In this document: piece after piece, positions 12,626 to 39,564 of the stretch | Layout: every line of letters starts with the position of its first letter | How positions within the stretch are numbered: position 1 is the first letter of the stretch | From: an uncultured Flavobacteriia bacterium | GTDB taxonomy: Bacteria; Bacteroidota; Bacteroidia; Flavobacteriales_D; Crocinitomicaceae | Length of the DNA stretch: 39,564 nt | NCBI GenBank assembly: GCA_903873915.1 | Contig: CAIQQH010000076.1 | Coordinates: forward strand, 1 to 39,564 | Direction of reading: 5' to 3' | Position numbers and translations under genes: made by a program | Notes under the pieces: generated by a model | What the model saw: the letters and a program-made list of their open reading frames with translations, nothing else | Told to the model about the DNA's origin: nothing | The model's database searches: none

Positions 12626-15600
12626 TTATTGTTTCACTCGGTTGATGTAGACAAATCCTTTTTTGATTTCGCCGTTCAATGTCAAGACATAGTAGTACGT
12701 TCCGTCAGGAAGCGCTTGACCATTGTCTGAGCGTGTTCCGTCCCAATCGTTGTTGTACGTTTTACTTGAATATACTTGGTTTCCGTAACGGTTGAATACG
12801 TCAATACTGCGTTCGTTGAAGAACTCAATGTTTCCAACAATAAACAAGTCATTGATGTTGTTTCCATTCGGAGTAAAGGCCTCGGGAATATCCGCTTCAA
12901 TTGGATCTGTTGTTCCATCACAAGAGTCATCAATTCCATCGTTGTCGGAGTCAATCCCATTTGTCTGTACGGTTACTTTGATTGTTGTAATTGTAGAATT
13001 TCCATTCACATCGATCAATGTTACGGTAATGGTGTTTTCACCGATGTCACCACAATCAAAGTCTGATTGATTCAGAATCGTAGAAGCCAATCCACAGTTG
13101 TCGCTTGAGCCTAAGTCAACATCAGCGAAGGTAATGCTTGCAGCACCGGCGTTGTTGAGTACGATGGTGATGTCTTGCAGCTGAGCTGTCGGATTGATGA
13201 TATCAGTTACAGTTATATTTTGTGTCGCTGTAGCGGTGTTTCCACTCGCATCCGTAGCAGTCCATGTGATGGTTGTCACACCTACAGGGAAGTCAAGTGG
13301 TGCATCGTTCACTACAGATGAGAGGCTACAGTTGTCTGTTGCGAATGGATTTCCAAGAACAAGACCTGAAGCAACACAGTTGGCTGTAGTGTTTACATTG
13401 AGTGAAGTTGGAGCAACAATTGTCGGCGCTTGAGTATCAGTTACTGTTACAGTCTGAGTAGCTGTAGCCGTATTTCCATTTGCATCGGTCACAGTCCAAG
13501 TCACAGTTGTTGTTCCCAATGGGAAGATCGCGGGTGCATTGTTCGTCACACTTGCTACGGTACAGTTGTCAGCCGTTGTTGGAGTTCCCAAAACCACGTT
13601 AAACGCTGCACAAGAGTTGTTTGCTTGAGCAGTAACATTGGCAGGCGAGGATATGGTAGGATTGATCGCATCTGTTATCGTCACGGTTTGTGTTGAGGTA
13701 GCTGTGTTTCCACTTGCATCCGTAGCAGTCCAAATAACGGTTGTTGTGCCGATAGGGAAGGATGAAGGAGCGTTGTTTGTTACAGTTACTGCCGAACAGT
13801 TATCCGCTGTTGTTGGAGTACCAAGTGTAACACCTGTTGCTGTGCAGCCAGTGTTTGTGGTTGCATTCACAGCAGCCGGAGCACTGATTGTTGGGTTCAC
13901 TTGATCAACTACTGTAACTGTTTGTGTTGCAGTTGCTGTGTTTCCACTCGCATCAGTTACTGTCCATGTCACTGATGTTGCTCCTGAAGGGAATGTTGTC
14001 GGTGCATTGTTTGTGACTGAAGCTACAGAACAGTTGTCGCTGAATTCAGGACTTCCAAGGTTCACGTTCTGAGCATTACATCCTGTTGTGGAGGAAACCG
14101 TCACATTCGCTGGTGCAGCTACTGTTGGAGCAATGACATCTGTGACAGTGACGGTTTGTACCGCCATTGTTGAATTTCCACTCGCATCTGTTGCTGTCCA
14201 TGTTACGGTTGTTGAACCAACAGGGTAGCTTGAAGGCGCATTGTTTGTTACAGTTACCGATGAACAGTTGTCGCTCGTTGTAGGTGTTCCAAGAATAACT
14301 CCTGTCGCAGCACATCCTGAAGTGGTAGTTGCTGTTACCGTTGCTGGTGCAGTGATGGAAGGAGAAACAAGGTCAATGACTGTAACCGTTTGCGTTGCTG
14401 TTGATGTATTTCCAGCCCCATCTGTTACAGTCCACGTTACGGTTGTTGTTCCGATCGGGAAAGAGCTTGGAGCATTGTTGCTTACAGTTCCCGCAGTACA
14501 GTTGTCTGCAGTAAATGCATTTCCAATGTTGCTCGCTGTAACTGAGCACGTCGCTCCTGCAGGAATGGTGATGTTCGCTGGGGCAACTAGTGAAGGTGCA
14601 CCTTGGTCAACCACCGTTACGGTTTGTGTCGCAGTGGCTGTATTTCCGCTGTTATCTGTTACCGTCCAAGTTACTGTTGTAGCTCCCAAGGGGAATACTG
14701 CAGGAGCATTATTGGTAACGGAAGCTACTCCACAGTTGTCAGCAGTGAATGGTGTTCCAAGGTTAACATTAAAGGAAGCACAACTTGCGTTGGCTTGAAC
14801 AGTCAGTGCTCCCGGAGCTGAGATCGTTGGTACAGTGTTGTCAGTGATGGTGACAGATTGCGCTGCCGTTGAACTATTTCCAGCAGCGTCGATTACCGTC
14901 CAAATTACAAGTGTTGTTCCTAATGGGAAGGTTGCAGGGGCATTGTTTGTTACACTGGCTACTGAGCAGTTATCTGCTGTTGTAGGTGTTCCTAAAAGAA
15001 TGCCAGTAGCATTGCATGCCGCATTTGCTGTGGCATTGACCGTAGAAGGAGCAACAATGGTTGGTGCACTAGTGTCAAGCACAACTACAGATTGTGTAGC
15101 AGTTGAACTGTTGCCATTTCCATCAGTGAAGTTCCAAGTGATTGTATAAGTTCCTTGTGCATTGTAAGTCAATGGATCTGTTGTCGTACCCGTTACTGTC
15201 CCAGAGCAATTGTCGTTTGCTGTCGGTGCAGTTATAGTTACGGAGCAAGCTCCTGAAACTGTCGCCAATGTTGGTGCAACAGGTGCGAGATTGTCATTCA
15301 CAGTAACTGTAAATGAACACGTCGACGTATTGCCAGCTGCATCAGTTGCCGTATAGGTCACTGTTGTTGCTCCTGTAGGGAAGAACGATCCAGGAGCATG
15401 AGTAGAAACAACAGCAACAGCCGGACAGTTGTCCGAAGTTACGGGTTCAACCCATGTCACAACAGTTCCACAACCTGTGGCTGAAGCAGTAGAAGTAACG
15501 TTTGCTGGACAGTTTGTGATTACAGGAAGTTCATCATCCGTTATCGTAATGGTAAATGAAGCATTGATAGAGTTGCCACTCGCATCTGTAAGTGTGTAAG

Positions 15601-18600
15601 TTTGCGTAGTCACTCCAACAGGGAAGATCGCTCCAGAAGTTAGACCTGAGCCGTCGGTTTGACTCAAAACAGCGCCACATGCATCAAAGAATGTCGGGAT
15701 CGCATACGTGATCACACGACCACAAAGACCATCAACAGCAGTTTGAGTAATGTTCGAAGGAACAGTTGCAAAACCTGGCGCAACATTGTCTTGAACAGTT
15801 ACAACAGCCACGCAAGTCGCTGAATTCCCGTTCACATCAGTAACAGTCAAGGTCACGTTGTTCGCACCTGTATCAAAACATCCAAAAGTTGTTTCGGACA
15901 GAGAGAAAGTAGCAATTGCACAGTTGTCTGTTGAACCATTGTTGATTTGTGCCGGGGTGATTGTTGCCACTCCTAAAGCATCTAGTTGTATCGTTATATT
16001 CTGACAAACAACCGTTGGAGCGATGATGTCTTGAACTGTAACGACCGAAAGACACGTAGAGCTATTTCCATTGACATCAGTTACCGTCATCACGATTGGA
16101 TTTGCACCAACATTGGCACAGGTGAATGCGGATTGAGAAAGTGTCATTGTCGCAATTCCACAGTTGTCTGCCGACCCATTGTCCACTTGTGCAGTTGTAA
16201 CACTCGTGTTACCCGTAGCATCCAATTGAATGCTTACGCTTTGACACAAGGCGCTCGGATTTTCGTTGTCTGTAACAGTAACGGTTTGAGTTGAGGTAGC
16301 TGTGTTTCCTGAGCCATCCGTTACAGTCCATGTCACAGTAGTCGTTCCGGTTGGGTAACTTGCGGGAGCATTGCTCACTACAGAAGCTACAGAACAGTTG
16401 TCTGCTGTTAAAGGTGTACCAAGTGCAACCGCTGATGCGCTGCAAAGTCCTGGATCCGTATTTACACTCACATTTGCAGGTGCTGTGATCGTAGGATTTT
16501 GATTGTCACTTACGGTTACAGTCTGTGTCGCTGTTGCTGTATTTCCAGAGCCGTCAGTAACTGTCCAAGTCACTGTTGTCGTTCCCAATGGGAAGGCAAC
16601 AAGACCATTGTTTATTGTGGATGCAACAGAACAGTTGTCTGCAGTTGTTGGCGTACCAAGTGCTACACCTGTAGCCGTGCACGTTCCGGCATCTGCAAAT
16701 ACACTCACATTGGCAGGTGCTGTGATCGTCGGATTTTGATTGTCACTTACGGTTACAGTTTGTGTCGCTGTGGTTGTATTTCCAGAGCCATCGGTCACTG
16801 TCCAAGTCACTGTCGTTGTTCCCAATGGATAAGTAGTCAATCCGTTATTTAAAGTTGAAGCTACTGAACAGTTATCAGCAGTTGTCGGTGCACCTAGTGC
16901 GACTCCTGTTGCCGTACATGTTCCTGCATCAGCAAACACATTGACATTTGCTGGAGCAGTAATTGTTGGGTTTTGATTGTCAATGACCGTTACTGTTTGA
17001 GTTGCTGTAGCGGTATTTCCAGAACCATCTGTTACAGTCCATGTGACTGTTGTTGCTCCCAATGGGAAGCTAGCAGGGGCATTGCTTACTACTGAGGCAA
17101 CTGAACAGTTATCCGCTGTTGTCGGTGTTCCAAGGGCAACACCTGTAGCATTGCATGATCCTGTATTCGCATTGACTGTCACTGCAGCAGGCGCTGTAAT
17201 GGTTGGATTCTGATTGTCCGTAACAGTTACTGTTTGAGTTGCTGTCGCGGTATTTCCAGAACCATCTGTTACAGTCCATGTGACTGTTGTTGCTCCCAAT
17301 GGGAAGCTAGCTGGGGCATTGCTTACAACTGAGGCAACTGAACAGTTATCCGCTGTTGTAGGTGTGCCAAGTGCAACACCTGTCGCTGCGCAAGATCCTG
17401 CATTTGCCACTACACTCACTGCGCCAGGTGCTGTAATCGTTGGATTAACAAGGTCTTGAATGGTAATCAACACATTATCTGTTGCTGTACAACCATTCAA
17501 GGTAGATGATAGGGTGAATGTCGTTGTTGTTGGAACAGTAAAAGAAGGAGTTAATGAGCTTGATGTAAATCCAGCTGGAGTTGAACTCCATGATGCTGGA
17601 GGAGCTGCTGCGCCACTGATTACGATATTGTCGATATACCAATTGTTTATATTCCAAACATCTCCGTTGAAACGGAAACGTAAATAGAAAATTTGATTGT
17701 CAACAACACCTAGGTTAACTCCACTCACTGCAGAAGCACCAATACTTGCTGTAGGATTGATTGTCCAAACTGGCGTCCATGTTATATTGTCTAAGGATAC
17801 TTCAGCACTCAGGGCATAGGTTCCCGTGAAGTGATCTACATTCTGGATGAAGGACATCGTCAATCCAGTGTAACCTGTTGCTGTAATTACAGGCGAAAAT
17901 GCACTAGCGTCTAAGAATGTTCCCACTCCACCACTTAACCATTGGAAAAATAATTCTGGGCTTGTACCTCCAGCATTTGCAGTAGTGATTACACCCCAGC
18001 GCGTTGGATCATTCGTCGTCCAGTTGATTGTGCCACCAAAATTTTCATTAAACACATTTGCTGTCATTGGGGCCACAGTGCCCGCAAGGTTGATATTACC
18101 CGGACATTGCGTTTGGTCAGGACCAGCATTCACTACTGGATTTGGATTTACTGTGATCGTGATACTTGCACAGTTCACGCTCCATTGTCCTGCGTTAAAA
18201 TTGCGGGCATAATAAGTTGTTGTCGCTGTTGGAGAAACTGTCAAGGTATTTCCTGTTCCAATTTGCCCAGTTGTAGCGCATCCCCCAGTGAACCAGTATA
18301 CTGTTCCAACGGCACCATTTGCAGTTAACACGGTACTTTGGCCGTTACAAATCGTTGAGGAACTCGCAGTAATGGAAGTCAAGTCTGCTGGTGGTGGCGT
18401 TGTACACGAAAGCGCAATGCTGAATGCACTATTTGTACTGTAACCATGCACTAAGATGTAATAGTTTTGACCGACAACCGACGTCCATGTATATGATGCG
18501 GATAAGCCGGTACAAGCCGGGCCGTTGTCATCAATTCCACCCACACAGGTCAGGGTAGAACAGTTCGGTCCTGAGAAAATTCCAATTTTACTGTCCCATA

Positions 18601-19651
18601 CCGTTCCACACAACGATGCTGTCATGATTTGACCATTTCCAGGAATCACATACCATACTCCAGGCATTGTTTGAGTGGTCGTACATGTACCATTTTCTCC
18701 TGTTCCAGAATTTGTGGCGTTGGTTGTTGTACCTGCTAAAGTCGCTCCACAGCTGATAGATGTTGCACTACATACCAAATCATTTGGTGGTGCAACAGCG
18801 GGAGTAACACATGTGAGCGCTAAACTAAATGCACTTGTTGTTGAATATCCAGAAACATTGATCCAATAGGTAGTTCCTAAGGTTGAAACCCAAGAAAAAG
18901 AGGCAGATGTACCTGCGCACGCAGGACCACCATCATCTATTCCACCAATACATGTCAAAGCGATACATAGGGCTCCTGAATAAATTTGAATTTTACTATC
19001 CCAAGCGGTAGCGCACAAAGAAGCAGTAATCGTTTGGCCTGTGCCAATAAACGTGTACCATACACCCGCACTACTTTGGGCTGTGCCACATAAAGTAGTA
19101 CCCTCGTAGGTGCCTGTTGATGTCGCATTGACAGTTGTTCCCGCTGTGGTTGAGCCACATGCAACAGTTGTTGCATTACACACCAAATCATTGGCAGGTG
19201 CAGCAGGTGCGGCTCCGATACAGCAAACGCTGCGGGTTCTTAACGCAGTTGAATTTCCACATGCCGCATTCGCATGTGTATAAAAGCGCACCGTTCCTGT
19301 AATGGTGGCTACCCATGTAATACCAGCGGCACCTCCAACACCAGAGGCATAGGACAATGTTCCTCCATTATTTGCAATGGTAATAAAGTCATTTATGTTT
19401 GAACTTCTAAATCGGTAGGTGTTTCCAGCAGTAACATTCACTTTTGAATACTCACCACCATAACCTAGTGTTGTAATAGTTTGGTAGGTACATGTTACGC
19501 CACACGTCGGGGTGAATGTCGTGGCAGGATATTGTCCGTACAAAGCCCCCAAACATTGAGCCTTCAGACTATTGCTAAAAACAACCGTGCTTACTGTTGT
19601 TAAAATGAGCAAACAGACCTTGAGTCTTGAAAGTATTTTTGTTGAAATCAT
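12626..19651 (-). CDS. Giant HYR-repeat adhesin with type B T9SS sorting domain
   Basis: This 2341-aa exported protein has a signal peptide of about 31 residues (MISTKILSRLKVCLLILTTV onward). A Cys-rich N-terminal domain (about 32-145) is followed by two NDLVC-type modules at about 155-285 and 287-418, an Ig-like Cys domain (about 420-500) and a jelly-roll-like region (about 510-690). Residues 733-2225 hold about 19 tandem repeats, mostly HYR domains of ~79 aa (NPTITAP start, TADNC, TVTWTVTDGSGNT). Three units, the 6th, 7th and last, are of a different Q-x-IxIxLDAxG type. A Ca-binding-like DSDNDGIDD stretch precedes the gliding-motility C-terminal domain at about 2253-2341 (PEAFTPNGNNINDLF, FNRYGNQVY, LPDGTYYYVL). 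It is probably a T9SS-exported surface adhesin, possibly for gliding or attachment. The ligand is unknown. Confidence 0.93.
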   Translation of the reverse strand: MISTKILSRLKVCLLILTTVSTVVFSNSLKAQCLGALYGQYPATTFTPTCGVTCTYQTITTLGYGGEYSKVNVTAGNTYRFRSSNINDFITIANNGGTLSYASGVGGAAGITWVATITGTVRFYTHANAACGNSTALRTRSVCCIGAAPAAPANDLVCNATTVACGSTTAGTTVNATSTGTYEGTTLCGTAQSSAGVWYTFIGTGQTITASLCATAWDSKIQIYSGALCIALTCIGGIDDGGPACAGTSASFSWVSTLGTTYWINVSGYSTTSAFSLALTCVTPAVAPPNDLVCSATSISCGATLAGTTTNATNSGTGENGTCTTTQTMPGVWYVIPGNGQIMTASLCGTVWDSKIGIFSGPNCSTLTCVGGIDDNGPACTGLSASYTWTSVVGQNYYILVHGYSTNSAFSIALSCTTPPPADLTSITASSSTICNGQSTVLTANGAVGTVYWFTGGCATTGQIGTGNTLTVSPTATTTYYARNFNAGQWSVNCASITITVNPNPVVNAGPDQTQCPGNINLAGTVAPMTANVFNENFGGTINWTTNDPTRWGVITTANAGGTSPELFFQWLSGGVGTFLDASAFSPVITATGYTGLTMSFIQNVDHFTGTYALSAEVSLDNITWTPVWTINPTASIGASAVSGVNLGVVDNQIFYLRFRFNGDVWNINNWYIDNIVISGAAAPPASWSSTPAGFTSSSLTPSFTVPTTTTFTLSSTLNGCTATDNVLITIQDLVNPTITAPGAVSVVANAGSCAATGVALGTPTTADNCSVASVVSNAPASFPLGATTVTWTVTDGSGNTATATQTVTVTDNQNPTITAPAAVTVNANTGSCNATGVALGTPTTADNCSVASVVSNAPASFPLGATTVTWTVTDGSGNTATATQTVTVIDNQNPTITAPANVNVFADAGTCTATGVALGAPTTADNCSVASTLNNGLTTYPLGTTTVTWTVTDGSGNTTTATQTVTVSDNQNPTITAPANVSVFADAGTCTATGVALGTPTTADNCSVASTINNGLVAFPLGTTTVTWTVTDGSGNTATATQTVTVSDNQNPTITAPANVSVNTDPGLCSASAVALGTPLTADNCSVASVVSNAPASYPTGTTTVTWTVTDGSGNTATSTQTVTVTDNENPSALCQSVSIQLDATGNTSVTTAQVDNGSADNCGIATMTLSQSAFTCANVGANPIVMTVTDVNGNSSTCLSVVTVQDIIAPTVVCQNITIQLDALGVATITPAQINNGSTDNCAIATFSLSETTFGCFDTGANNVTLTVTDVNGNSATCVAVVTVQDNVAPGFATVPSNITQTAVDGLCGRVITYAIPTFFDACGAVLSQTDGSGLTSGAIFPVGVTTQTYTLTDASGNSINASFTITITDDELPVITNCPANVTSTASATGCGTVVTWVEPVTSDNCPAVAVVSTHAPGSFFPTGATTVTYTATDAAGNTSTCSFTVTVNDNLAPVAPTLATVSGACSVTITAPTANDNCSGTVTGTTTDPLTYNAQGTYTITWNFTDGNGNSSTATQSVVVLDTSAPTIVAPSTVNATANAACNATGILLGTPTTADNCSVASVTNNAPATFPLGTTLVIWTVIDAAGNSSTAAQSVTITDNTVPTISAPGALTVQANASCASFNVNLGTPFTADNCGVASVTNNAPAVFPLGATTVTWTVTDNSGNTATATQTVTVVDQGAPSLVAPANITIPAGATCSVTASNIGNAFTADNCTAGTVSNNAPSSFPIGTTTVTWTVTDGAGNTSTATQTVTVIDLVSPSITAPATVTATTTSGCAATGVILGTPTTSDNCSSVTVTNNAPSSYPVGSTTVTWTATDASGNSTMAVQTVTVTDVIAPTVAAPANVTVSSTTGCNAQNVNLGSPEFSDNCSVASVTNNAPTTFPSGATSVTWTVTDASGNTATATQTVTVVDQVNPTISAPAAVNATTNTGCTATGVTLGTPTTADNCSAVTVTNNAPSSFPIGTTTVIWTATDASGNTATSTQTVTITDAINPTISSPANVTAQANNSCAAFNVVLGTPTTADNCTVASVTNNAPAIFPLGTTTVTWTVTDANGNTATATQTVTVTDTQAPTIVAPTSLNVNTTANCVASGLVLGNPFATDNCSLSSVVNDAPLDFPVGVTTITWTATDASGNTATATQNITVTDIINPTAQLQDITIVLNNAGAASITFADVDLGSSDNCGLASTILNQSDFDCGDIGENTITVTLIDVNGNSTITTIKVTVQTNGIDSDNDGIDDSCDGTTDPIEADIPEAFTPNGNNINDLFIVGNIEFFNERSIDVFNRYGNQVYSSKTYNNDWDGTRSDNGQALPDGTYYYVLTLNGEIKKGFVYINRVKQ
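16262..17450 (-). repeat. Tandem 237-bp DNA repeats encoding the first five HYR domains
   Basis: Within the adhesin gene the five N-terminal-most HYR units repeat with a 79-codon period. The segments starting near 17001 and near 17238 are almost identical over most of their length, differing mainly at third positions. Later units (below about 16262) are more diverged in DNA. This points to recent duplication or gene conversion at this end of the array. Confidence 0.8.
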
Positions 19652-36494: not shown

Positions 36495-36570
36495 GGCACG
36501 AAGATACAAAGTGCAGCGGACATTTGGAGGGATGGTGCTTGGCATTCAAGAATATTCTATTTTCGTAGCC
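36495..36570. promoter_or_regulatory. Divergent promoter region ribD / MFS
   Basis: In this 76-bp gap both start codons are preceded by a TAnnTTCG box, one mismatch from TAnnTTTG. TATCTTCG on the minus strand (36499-36506) lies 4 nt before the ribD ATG. TATTTTCG on the plus strand (36558-36565) lies 5 nt before the MFS ATG, with a TTG 16 nt further upstream. Such short distances would give leaderless mRNAs. Confidence 0.35.
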
Positions 36571-37866
36571 ATGATACCTGCAGAAAATAAAAAGAACCGC
36601 CAGATTGCATTATTGATCATCGTTGCTGCGCTCGGCTATTTTGTTGACATCTATGATTTAGTCCTATTCGGTGTGGTGAAGGCGGAGAGTTTGGATCAAA
36701 TCATGACCAATGCCAGTCCAGATGCCAAAGCAGCGATGGGGAAATTTCTCTTCAACATGCAGATGCTCGGTATGCTCATCGGGGGATTGCTTTGGGGAAT
36801 TCTCGGAGATAAAAAAGGCCGATTGAAAGTGCTTTTCGGGTCCATTTTGTTGTATTCTGTGGCCAATATTGCCAACGCTTTTGTTACAGACACAAATACG
36901 TATACATTCGTACGCATCATCGCAGGAATTGGCTTGGCGGGCGAACTCGGCGCCGGAATTACCTTAGTCTCTGAAATGATGTCCAAAGAAAAACGGGGTT
37001 ACGGCACCATGATTATAGTGACCTTTGGAGCATTGGGTGCAGTGGTAGCTTCTTTGGTGGGAATGAATGGCGATGCGATTGGACATTTTATCAAAGGCTT
37101 AACAGGTCTTCAGCTCGCGAATTGGCAAGTAGCTTATGTACTTGGTGGAACCATGGGATTGGTTCTTTTACTGATGCGTGTTGGTACCATCGAATCTGCT
37201 TTTTTCAAAGAGATCAAGCAGGAAGGAGCAGTGAAAAAAGGCGATTTGCGTCTCATCTTCGGGGACAAATCCAACCGAATCAAATACTTGCATTGCATCT
37301 TGATTGGGATCCCCATATGGTACGTTATAGGTTTGCTCATCATGAACTCCAAAGATCACTTCGGACCTTGGTTGGGTGTAGAAAATGTTGAAAATGGACT
37401 CGCCGTAATGTATGCCTACATCGGACTTTCCTTTGGAGACTTGTTGTCTGGATTGCTAAGTCAGATTCTGAAAAGTCGTAAAAAGGTGGTGTATCTCTAT
37501 TTGTTTTTCACATTCACCACGACTCTTATCTTCTTATTTGTGCTCAAGGACATCACTGCAAACATGTATTACCTCATGTGTTTTCTTTTGGGAACAGGAA
37601 CAGGTTATTGGGCCATCTTCGTGACTATCGCTGCAGAACAGTTTGGAACGAATATCCGTTCAACCGCGGCCAATACCATTCCCAACTTCGTGCGTGGTTC
37701 GGTGAACATTGTCGTCTTGCTTTTTGGCTTGTTGTTGTCTTTTCACCTCTCCGACGGACTTGCAGCACTGCTGGTTGGATTGCTGTTTATTGCATTGGCA
37801 TTTTACAGTATTTCGAGGTTGACAGAAACTTTTGGGAAGGACCTTGATTATTTGGAAGGGAAATAG
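36571..37866 (+). CDS. Major facilitator superfamily transporter
   Basis: This is 431 aa from the ATG at 36571 (MIPAENKKNRQIALLIIVAA). The longer frame back to 36415 runs antisense through ribD and is rejected. About 12 hydrophobic helices are visible, with the MFS loop motif after TM2, GGLLWGILGDKKGRLKVL, and GIGLAGELGAGITLVSEMM in the region resembling sugar/metabolite:H+ symporters of the MHS type. The first helix carries acidic residues (FVDIYDLVLFGVV) that could couple protons. It is in the inner membrane and its substrate is unknown. It stands alone and is followed by repeat element 2. Confidence 0.9.
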   Translation: MIPAENKKNRQIALLIIVAALGYFVDIYDLVLFGVVKAESLDQIMTNASPDAKAAMGKFLFNMQMLGMLIGGLLWGILGDKKGRLKVLFGSILLYSVANIANAFVTDTNTYTFVRIIAGIGLAGELGAGITLVSEMMSKEKRGYGTMIIVTFGALGAVVASLVGMNGDAIGHFIKGLTGLQLANWQVAYVLGGTMGLVLLLMRVGTIESAFFKEIKQEGAVKKGDLRLIFGDKSNRIKYLHCILIGIPIWYVIGLLIMNSKDHFGPWLGVENVENGLAVMYAYIGLSFGDLLSGLLSQILKSRKKVVYLYLFFTFTTTLIFLFVLKDITANMYYLMCFLLGTGTGYWAIFVTIAAEQFGTNIRSTAANTIPNFVRGSVNIVVLLFGLLLSFHLSDGLAALLVGLLFIALAFYSISRLTETFGKDLDYLEGK

Positions 37867-37970
37867 AATTAGTTACTAATTACTAATTACGAGTTACGAA
37901 TTCGGTGGCTCCGCCGAAGCGGACACGTGAGGTGCGCAGCATTATCGAAGCCACGAATTACGAATTAACT
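37867..37970. repeat. Heptanucleotide-repeat and hairpin intergenic element 2
   Basis: Directly after the MFS stop come heptads (AATTAGT, TACTAAT twice, TACGAGT, TACGAAT) at 37867-37901. A block bounded by GTGGCT/AGCCAC follows at 37905-37954 with core CCGAAGCGGACA at 37914-37925, then GAATTACGAATTAA. It is the same architecture as the element at 10152-10398, with one mismatch in the 12-bp core and a longer hairpin interior. Confidence 0.75.
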
Positions 37971-38194
37971 TTGATGCGTTCACCTTTCGTCATTTTAATC
38001 TGTAAATGAGGTGCTTTGTCTTTCTGTGATCATGATATCATGGTGAAAAGGTGCATCGATGTGTTTTTGTAGTTTCTAAACGGATCGATTGCCTTACAGG
38101 TTAAAGTTTACCAAGGAAAAATGTGAATGTAAAGCACTCGAGATAATTTATATTGTGGGTTAGGTTTAGAACAAATTCGAATCAATATAAATTT
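37971..38194. other. Intergenic spacer between repeat element 2 and the TIR gene
   Basis: No gene was found. It holds the perfect 12-bp palindrome CATGATATCATG at 38031-38042. Base composition becomes increasingly AT-rich toward the TIR gene. No T-tract terminator is obvious. Confidence 0.45.
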
Positions 38195-39130
38195 TTAATA
38201 TTCAATAGCAATAGTAGTATCTGCCGCACTCCCTGTAGCCTCGAGATTATTGGTTGATAGTCCACATTCAGATAAAATTTTTGCAATTTTCGCAAATTCT
38301 GTTGTATCAGTCATTGAATTCAAATTCAATGTTGAATAATTAGGAAATAAAGGCATTATTTTTTCGAGCGCGCAATCACAAATTATTGTAGGTGAAATTT
38401 CTTTTATTTCATCACAAAAAACGTTTTTATCCTCAATAGTCCATCCTGTTTTAGGATCCTCTATTTTCTCATTATTTCTAAACACACCATCCCAATTGAT
38501 ATTAGGGATTATGATTAAACTCAAAAGTAAAACTATTATAGAACCAATTAAAACTTTGTTTTTAAATATATTTAAGTTTAAAATGGGTGTTACATTACTA
38601 TTTGGCTCAACTCTTTTTTCATCCTTCAGTGAGGTTGTTTGAACGACATTTTTTTGTTCACTTGTGATTTTGTGATTTGTCGAAGGTTTTATTTCATTTG
38701 TAGGATCTAATTTCTTTAAATCTATTCCTAGAGACCGCCCACAATTTTGATATAATAAATCAAAATAATCTTCAGCGTTACCATTGACGGCATCCAACCA
38801 GTGCACAGAACTAAGAAACAACTCCAATGTAGCACTTGGAATAATGTCCTCTACCTTAAGCGGAATGATTATGGATTTATAATTAAAAGCACGTTCAACC
38901 TCATTTTTTACAAAAAGAGAATTATTAGCGTTTTCACTGAAAACAACAACCATCACCTTACAAGATCGAATACCATTAATAATGGATTCAGCATATTCCA
39001 TTCCGCCCTGTACATCTCTTGGGGCAATCCAGCAGCGAATACCTCTTTCTTCTAGGTAATGACAAATTGCATAAGCTAATTTACTGTCAGTACTGGAATG
39101 GCTGATAAAAACGTCGTGATTTGTTTCCAT
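38195..39130 (-). CDS. TIR-domain protein with single transmembrane segment
   Basis: This 311-aa protein has an N-terminal TIR domain at about 5-135, with HDVFISHSSTDSKLAYAICH, CWIAPRDVQGGMEYAESI and the alpha-C-type motif FSENANNSLFVKNEVERAF. In the last motif Glu77 sits where bacterial TIR NADases carry their catalytic Glu. A polar linker (about 140-190) leads to one TM helix at about 192-210 (KVLIGSIIVLLLSLIIIPNI). A C-terminal domain follows with a Cys cluster (CDEIK, IICDCALEK, SECG). Bacterial TIR proteins often deplete NAD+ or make cADPR-type signals in antiphage defence; activity here is inferred. The start is 3 nt after the stop of the upstream two-TM gene. The region is very AT-rich. 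Confidence 0.85.
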   Translation of the reverse strand: METNHDVFISHSSTDSKLAYAICHYLEERGIRCWIAPRDVQGGMEYAESIINGIRSCKVMVVVFSENANNSLFVKNEVERAFNYKSIIIPLKVEDIIPSATLELFLSSVHWLDAVNGNAEDYFDLLYQNCGRSLGIDLKKLDPTNEIKPSTNHKITSEQKNVVQTTSLKDEKRVEPNSNVTPILNLNIFKNKVLIGSIIVLLLSLIIIPNINWDGVFRNNEKIEDPKTGWTIEDKNVFCDEIKEISPTIICDCALEKIMPLFPNYSTLNLNSMTDTTEFAKIAKILSECGLSTNNLEATGSAADTTIAIEY

Positions 39131-39133
39131 TAA

Positions 39134-39564
39134 TTAAATTTTTACTTCTAAATTTTTATTTTTTTCATCCTCAACCCATTTTGAAATTTCGAAAGTAAAA
39201 GATGAAACAAGTTTTTTTTCAATGTAACTTAATGCTTCAATTTGTGTGCACTCTTTTATTTCACTCTGTAACATTATGTACAAATTTACTGTTTCTATGG
39301 AGATTTGTTTGTTTTTACTCCATTCATTGAAATGTATTACACCTTCAATTGAAGCATAAATAGGCGGAATGGCCATACATAGGATACCGAATAAAACATT
39401 TAAAAACTCAGATTCTCTCGTATTTAGATAAAAACAAATACCATAATAGATAATCATGCTGAATAAATTTGAAAGTAAAATCAGTCTGAGTAAAAATAAA
39501 ATTTTTGAATATTGCGATAGTTTTCTTGTAAATGGATTTATCCTTTTCTCTTTTTGATAATTAA
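39134..39564 (-). CDS. Two-TM membrane protein, 5'-truncated by window edge
   Basis: The frame stays open from the stop at 39134 to the window end, giving 142 visible residues; an internal ATG at 39457 would cut through the first hydrophobic helix, so the gene almost certainly begins outside. It shows a basic start (QKEKRINPFTRKLSQYSK), TM1 ILFLLRLILLSNLFSMIIYY, TM2 FLNVLFGILCMAIPPIYASI, then a soluble helical tail ending FEISKWVEDEKNKNLEVKI. The two-TM hairpin plus helical tail resembles SLATT-type 2TM effectors of bacterial conflict systems, but I cannot confirm this. It is coupled to the TIR gene, 3 nt apart. Confidence 0.6.
   Translation of the reverse strand, partial: NYQKEKRINPFTRKLSQYSKILFLLRLILLSNLFSMIIYYGICFYLNTRESEFLNVLFGILCMAIPPIYASIEGVIHFNEWSKNKQISIETVNLYIMLQSEIKECTQIEALSYIEKKLVSSFTFEISKWVEDEKNKNLEVKI

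Follow-up and report, generated by a model that had tools for sequence, protein, structure and literature searches.

A membrane TIR gene pair, probably acquired, at a variable site beside an integron-like array in Bacteroidota

Introduction

The protein examined here can be compared with the bacterial TIR_2 domains (PF13676) and with TIRs that act as NADases or make signals, AbTir and TIR-APAZ among them, with which it shares the fold and the position of the catalytic glutamate; its TIR domain also matches the AbTir and SPARTA TIR structures. Unlike AbTir and TIR-APAZ, it carries one transmembrane (TM) helix and a C-terminal extracytoplasmic cysteine domain. To our knowledge, most described bacterial TIR defence proteins are soluble. 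Its gene lies in the window, by which we mean the whole stretch of DNA analysed (39564 bp), next to a gene for a protein with two TM segments (2TM).

Defence systems with TIR proteins offer further points of comparison. Against the model for the TIR effectors of Pycsar and CBASS (CAP12-PCTIR TIR, PF10137), the window TIR scored 24.4 bits, just below the cut-off of 24.7; in contrast to those systems, the visible part of the locus holds no cyclase or nucleotidyltransferase, and no cyclic-nucleotide-binding domain was matched. As in Thoeris (ThsB/ThcB), the TIR gene is part of a two-gene unit, and Thoeris-type models gave weak matches of up to 25 bits, short of the thresholds for ThcB4 (19.2 of 220 bits) and for Pfam ThsB_TIR (20 of 21.2). 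In contrast to Thoeris, the visible partner is a small 2TM protein in which no SIR2, SLOG or macro domain was matched, and the contig ends within this gene adjoining the TIR gene, where a ThsA-type effector was sought.

SLATT proteins combine two TM helices with a helical tail, and the part of a survey used here reports SLATT genes adjoining TIR-type effectors in other conflict systems (PMC7159879). There, and at locus L011 of genome G050, a 2TM protein is found with TIR or nucleotide enzymes; the arrangement in the window, with a 2TM gene directly upstream of the TIR gene, is the same, whereas the window fragment lacks its 5' end, a SLATT model match and similarity to the L011 protein. Defence-type genes also occur in attC arrays behind an integrase in Vibrio integrons; integron cassettes, in the part of the source drawn on here, typically hold one ORF and occasionally more (PMC12409362). 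The arrays described below differ from these in lying in Bacteroidota-type genomes and in having an integrase that scores below the integron cut-off and apparently has no IntI domain.

Results

The window is the entire contig C76 of the source genome (G000), which is fragmented (2.8 Mb in 137 contigs, 87.5% complete), and the truncation of the 2TM gene is the contig end: the ORF has its stop at 39134 and is still open at 39562. The initial annotation described two minus-strand genes lying 3 nt apart, the second encoding a truncated 2TM protein. Both the positions and the spacing are as claimed, with the 2TM gene upstream of the TIR gene, and hydropathy gives two TM helices in the visible fragment (Table 1). 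The GC content is 30.3% in the pair region compared to 43.8% for bases 1-37866, and the lowest value of any 1370-bp stretch before 38195 is 36.7%. The sharp contrast in composition noted previously therefore holds, as does the count of 30 G+C for 37021-37080, but 38521-38580 contains 9 G+C rather than 10. Acquisition by transfer, as originally proposed, is likely in view of the AT-rich composition, the variable site and the lack of any relative of the TIR protein at E <= 1e-10 in the 239 other genomes of the family. Weaker TIR matches were found in three of these 239 genomes.

Table 1. Coordinates of the gene pair, its predicted domains and its flank in the window
Feature	Position	Strand	Basis or remark
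MFS-type transporter bordering variable site	36565..37866	+	Label read from sequence, no family search
Spacer, MFS gene to TIR stop	37867..38194	.	No significant attC-like site found
TIR-TM-Cys-domain protein	38195..39130	-	ORF, 311 aa, ATG start
Outer GW...CDC...FPN domain, Cys 239, 251, 253, 289	38261..38446	-	Profile of 26 homologues
Single TM helix, residues 193-211	38498..38554	-	Hydropathy 2.7 over 19 residues
TIR domain, residues 7-121	38768..39112	-	Pfam TIR_2, AlphaFold model, solved-structure matches
Glu77 codon, catalytic-Glu position	38900..38902	-	4/4 aligned TIRs; Roq1 alignment
2TM protein, 5' end missing	39134..39564	-	142 aa visible; TM 21-39 and 54-72; helical tail

The assignment of a TIR domain with Glu77 at the NADase position was confirmed. 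The proposed family search returned Pfam TIR_2 at 81.4 bits (E 9.4e-23), well above the cut-off of 28, and the AlphaFold model of residues 1-143, made with a four-sequence alignment, reached a pLDDT of 87.3 and a pTM of 0.85. Foldseek gave 123 matches to solved structures at E <= 0.001, of which the best 50, ranging over SARM1, RUN1, AbTir and SPARTA, are TIR domains or TIR-holding complexes (as judged by title for all but 8fex). Glu77 is kept in all four aligned TIRs and aligns, by manual count of positions on the alignment, with Glu86 of Roq1 chain 7jlu_A, presumably the catalytic residue of Roq1. Judged from its sequence, the protein is likely to have NADase activity, and we infer that its TIR domain faces the cytoplasm.

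The single TM helix and the cysteine-containing extracytoplasmic tail of the initial annotation are likewise supported, by hydropathy and by a profile match to lipoproteins, respectively. The tail after the helix is about 100 residues long and resembles a 78-aa lipoprotein of the same genome (E 0.066); 54 of the family's 240 genomes contain relatives of this lipoprotein (E <= 0.01). A profile of these lipoproteins, made from 26 of the 30 loci returned (four were dropped as wrong-frame ORFs and three trimmed), matched the tail with 32.8 bits (E 3.5e-9 among 1035 sequences), compared to 9.0 bits for the best of 1000 shuffles. The shared signature is GW...C...CDC...YPN...C (loci L109-L137; window 38261-38446), for which we found no covering Pfam family, and the same domain ends two multi-TM proteins (L122 and L126). 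The tail is thus a predicted extracytoplasmic domain common to small lipoproteins and newly recognised here. Since the relatives, from a reading of their sequences, look like exported lipoproteins, the most likely predicted topology is N-in, C-out, with the TIR domain inside and the cysteine domain outside. The occurrence in 54 of 240 genomes and in the two multi-TM proteins argues that this domain is widespread and not specific to defence.

The 2TM protein had been called SLATT-like, and this part of the annotation was not supported. The fragment gave no Pfam match at E <= 10 in the proposed search for SLATT families, no PADLOC, NCBIfam or PHROGs match at E <= 1, and no plasmid match at E <= 1; pattern scans of genome contigs and viral contigs for the protein found none. 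A genuine SLATT protein of 175 aa in G050 (DUF4231, 75.8 bits; SLATT_1, 53.9 bits, with the same Pfam library) has its gene 59 bp upstream of, and in the same orientation as, that for an 1811-aa TIR protein (L011). The window fragment has no detectable similarity to the SLATT protein, its score being equalled or exceeded by 507 of 1000 local shuffles. The fragment does have two TM helices; its helical tail is read from a weak model (AlphaFold of the fragment alone, pLDDT 54). With neither a profile match nor similarity to the G050 protein, SLATT membership of the 5'-truncated fragment was rejected. The pairing of TIR with SLATT as such has a precedent in G050, and the original idea is reasonable for this pair, although SLATT membership of its 2TM protein was not supported. 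In G050:C1 (L145 505-6527), the SLATT_1/DUF4231 and 1811-aa TIR genes adjoin repeated 390-aa proteins of no assigned type.

Two apparent relatives of the 2TM protein, in G228 and G155 (E 4e-4 and 1e-3, about 30% identity), were judged to be chance matches; they fall on the upstream region and signal peptide of a conserved 385-aa protein and lie in its frame, and one spans two stops. Six further marginal matches among 395 genomes of the phylum had E values of 0.002-0.008, three of them with internal stops. The coupling of TIR and 2TM is drawn from a single locus and its gene spacing, since no homologous pair was found in the genomes, plasmids and viral contigs searched.

Other TIR proteins show how far the architecture extends. 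Three relatives found by pattern (L006-L008) are of a type read as TIR-SUMF1 and have no 2TM partner. Eight others were checked for TM helices (L009-L015 and L142), and two of them, L010 and L142, consist of a TIR domain, one TM helix and a C-terminal domain. That of L142 is DUF6273, and neither C terminus matches the tail in the window. L142 comes from an unannotated human-gut contig and has no 2TM neighbour within the 5 kb visible. Upstream of the seven genome TIR loci checked, L011 has the SLATT gene and L012 a different protein with two TM segments directly adjacent, and the remaining five have no 2TM gene directly upstream. Plasmid matches were TIR proteins of Priestia and Gloeothece plasmids (by annotation only), and a scan of viral contigs with the TIR alignment found none. 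These cases suggest that the TIR-TM layout recurs with different outer domains, and this recurrence lowers the novelty of the architecture in the window. No description of a TIR-TM-Cys architecture was found in the open-licence literature searched.

The pair lies at a site of variable content. The MFS gene is present in 22 of 26 genomes of the genus. Twelve stretches downstream of it were fetched, and one was left out (L049, whose contig ends 0.6 kb after the gene). In 10 of the remaining 11, the MFS gene is followed, directly or after an insert, by a gene for an AhpC-type peroxiredoxin, a label read from sequence. In G079, the closest relative (MFS 95% identical), the insert consists of genes for a tyrosine recombinase and for a Ser/Thr kinase that has a TM at its C terminus. 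The AhpC gene of the source genome lies on another contig, C124, and its product is 97% identical to that of G079; it is followed by the ortholog of the G079 recombinase, a Bro-N gene, a pair of genes for proteins of 194 and 732 aa, and the contig end. The Bro-N gene (L055 8821-9648), a candidate defence gene, matches PADLOC PDC-S13 with 405 bits. It sits between the integrase and an attI-like motif and may move together with the integrase instead of being a cassette.

Contig C124 runs on for 5.6 kb after AhpC and stops in array DNA, and C76 runs on for 1.7 kb after the MFS gene and stops in AT-rich DNA; both flanks are homologous to G079, and no overlap or read link between the two contigs was found. 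The pair would accordingly be placed in the MFS-AhpC interval, with C76 and C124 linked by synteny only. If the two contigs are one locus, the C124 genes and the 2TM-TIR pair share an orientation. An Rfam search of both sides gave nothing at the gathering score. A GC-rich repeat of the type ggtggctccgccgaagcggacacgtgaggtgcg...tcgaagccacgagtta stands beside the MFS gene (window 37900-37970) and beside AhpC (L055 7150-7240), that is, on both sides of the variable site. In G099, AT-rich ORFs follow the MFS gene (L051 427-5270), among them one that matches Abi_2 below the threshold (21 of 25.6 bits), and AhpC is absent within the 5.7 kb available after that gene.

The C124 integrase resembles a Xer-type recombinase more closely than an integron integrase. 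It matched TIGR02249 in two pieces with 193.3 of 265 bits, below the integron-integrase cut-off, and matched the XerA model NF040815 end to end with 218.2 of 220 bits (224.5 for the G079 ortholog). On account of these two results, it appears to lack the IntI-specific extra domain, by which IntegronFinder 2.0, in the part of its description used here, tells integron integrases; the same part names Salinibacter ruber as the sole Bacteroidetes genome with a complete integron (PMC9024848). The C124 array does not have an integrase above the cut-off, and apparently none with the extra domain, by which an integron would be identified. Two Chryseobacterium plasmids carry an integrase 66% identical over residues 106-374. 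They agree at about 90% over the integrase and a further 107 bp, as far as ATATAAACAAG^TT, and part there (AACAAG^TT), diverging beyond as expected of an attI site. Insertion at G^TT beside the integrase is thus seen for these relatives, and C124 itself has only a similar motif. By eye, attI-like motifs read ...ATAGAAG^TTAGTGG in G079 and ...ATATAAG^TTAGCG after the Bro-N gene in C124. Near a contig end, L093 (G090:C62) has an apparent decayed integrase remnant, after which come a G^TTAGCGG motif and then two ORFs and an attC-like site. The open-licence literature searched yielded no description of integrons with such a Xer-type integrase.

Contig C124 ends within an inverted repeat, TAACAGCGTGTAAGC...GCCTACACGC. 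Matches to this repeat at E <= 1 occur in 17 of 26 genomes of the genus (the source genome included), many of them short. In seven other genomes, ten places are 77-98% identical to it over at least 62 bases and run on with ...AAACCGTTAGCGG or similar, giving two arms like those of attC, whose names we take to be R and L. A model of these attC-like sites finds clusters of two or three. The sites counted were 21, comprising 20 of the 22 model rows (two were dropped as reverse-strand copies) and the C124 site itself, a single attC-like site that follows a gene and is truncated at the contig end. Of the 21, 18 begin no more than 20 bp from a codirectional stop, against a mean of 0.61 and a maximum of 5 in 1000 random draws, and 20 begin within 150 bp (random mean 2.22); the model had itself been built from 11 of the 20 model sites and the C124 site, and some of the cassettes duplicate one another (L086/L095 and L085/L087).

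A Pfam scan of 17 of the 20 genes preceding attC-like sites identified five of conflict type, namely, type IIG restriction, type II restriction, GmrSD, ParE and a caspase-like gene. Most of the 17 are not defence genes (GDPD, nitroreductase, esterase, methyltransferase, others and unmatched). One caspase-like cassette occurs, together with its attC-like site, in both G092 and G096 (L086 8532-9359; L095 2730-3557). Integron-like arrays, in which attI-like and attC-like sites lie beside a Xer-type tyrosine recombinase, are found in the genus and on the Chryseobacterium plasmids (L055 7671-12598, G000:C124; L040 13938-16026; L139 and L140 7770-9100). The C124 side of the variable site seems to be such an array, newly described here.

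In G079, the kinase gene is followed by a long attC-like stem with a score of 21.0, which none of 200 shuffles equalled (maximum, 19.5). After the TIR gene, no attC-like site was found with the attC model R1, and the score of the best stem candidate was reached by 45 of 200 shuffles. An attC of its own after the last gene, as expected of a cassette, was thus not detected for the pair, by methods that both miss some real sites. On three plasmid loci the attC model had no hits, though attC-like sites are recognisable there by eye, which indicates that the model is narrow. Of seven regions given to the stem scorer, two yielded no candidate, and since one of these is L076, a site of the attC model, its negative result on the TIR gene is not strong.

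Discussion

The TIR and 2TM genes probably constitute a sporadic membrane TIR module that was acquired at a variable site beside an integron-like array. Our preferred reading, to which we give a probability of roughly 45%, is that this is an accessory two-gene module directed against phages or other invaders, with the 2TM protein as the membrane effector, so that a role in defence is plausible. It rests on the TIR fold with its glutamate, the low GC content, the variable site, the PDC-S13 Bro-N gene, the conflict-type cassettes and the TIR-SLATT pairing in G050. The outer domain or the membrane environment would sense an event at the envelope, the TIR domain would then cleave NAD+, for depletion or as a signal, and the 2TM partner, which the TIR protein would open or recruit, would damage the membrane and halt the infected cell. 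Against a defence module speak the lack of a homologous pair and of a 2TM family, the absence of a detected attC after the TIR gene and the unjoined state of C76 and C124, as well as the mostly non-defence cassette genes, the TIR-SUMF1-type relatives that lack such a partner and the wide spread of the outer domain. From the antiphage reading of the initial annotation, the TIR domain with its glutamate, the membrane anchor and the defence-leaning setting are retained, but not the SLATT partner.

The strongest competitor, though doubtful, assigns the same locus a different division of labour, in which the TIR protein would be the only effector, acting through NAD+ depletion, and the 2TM protein a regulator, anchor or immunity partner. 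A TIR domain with an intact glutamate can be an NADase effector on its own, and both the tight spacing with the 2TM gene first and the failure of the 2TM fragment to match an effector family fit this arrangement; against it stands the missing 5' end of the 2TM gene.

Somewhat less probable is a membrane TIR that serves envelope signalling or a stress response instead of defence, its outer domain sensing a periplasmic cue. The breadth of the outer domain family, at E <= 0.01 and as far as the multi-TM ends of L122 and L126, would suit such a function, whereas the sporadic, AT-rich nature of the pair and its place at a variable site would not. Equally unlikely, in our estimate, is that the two genes have decayed or been orphaned from a larger system of CBASS, Pycsar or Thoeris type, whose signal-making or sensing gene would lie beyond the contig end. 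The contig does end inside the 2TM gene, and the TIR protein matches the ThsB, CAP12 and ThcB4 models weakly, but no partner is visible, and integron cassettes, in the part of PMC12409362 used here, typically have one ORF, occasionally more. That C76 and C124 are not one locus, which would make the integron context inapplicable to the TIR gene, is quite improbable, since against the missing overlap or read link and the missing attC stand the MFS and AhpC neighbours in 10 of 11 stretches, the G079 homology on both flanks and the way in which C124 breaks off in array DNA 5.6 kb past AhpC and C76 in AT-rich DNA 1.7 kb past the MFS gene.

A TIR protein with an extracytoplasmic domain has the layout of a receptor and might detect phage at the envelope. 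A more elaborate proposal, which we hold to be unlikely, is that a receptor-like TIR protein (a lipoprotein-derived outer disulfide domain, TM helix and NADase TIR) and its 2TM effector form a cassette that has spread through Bacteroidota in integrons with a Xer-type integrase without the IntI domain. If this is true, the protein would be a minimal transmembrane TIR immune receptor that watches the envelope and not the cytoplasm. The setting points to integron-like arrays of a Bacteroidota type, with a recombinase without the IntI domain, that are stocked partly with conflict genes. Such arrays may be missed, because IntegronFinder 2.0, according to the part of its description used here, identifies integron integrases by the extra domain (PMC9024848).

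A type-9 secretion tail domain was found in one relative of the source genome. Within the window itself, an ORF of 2341 aa (12626-19651) is very long for the contig.
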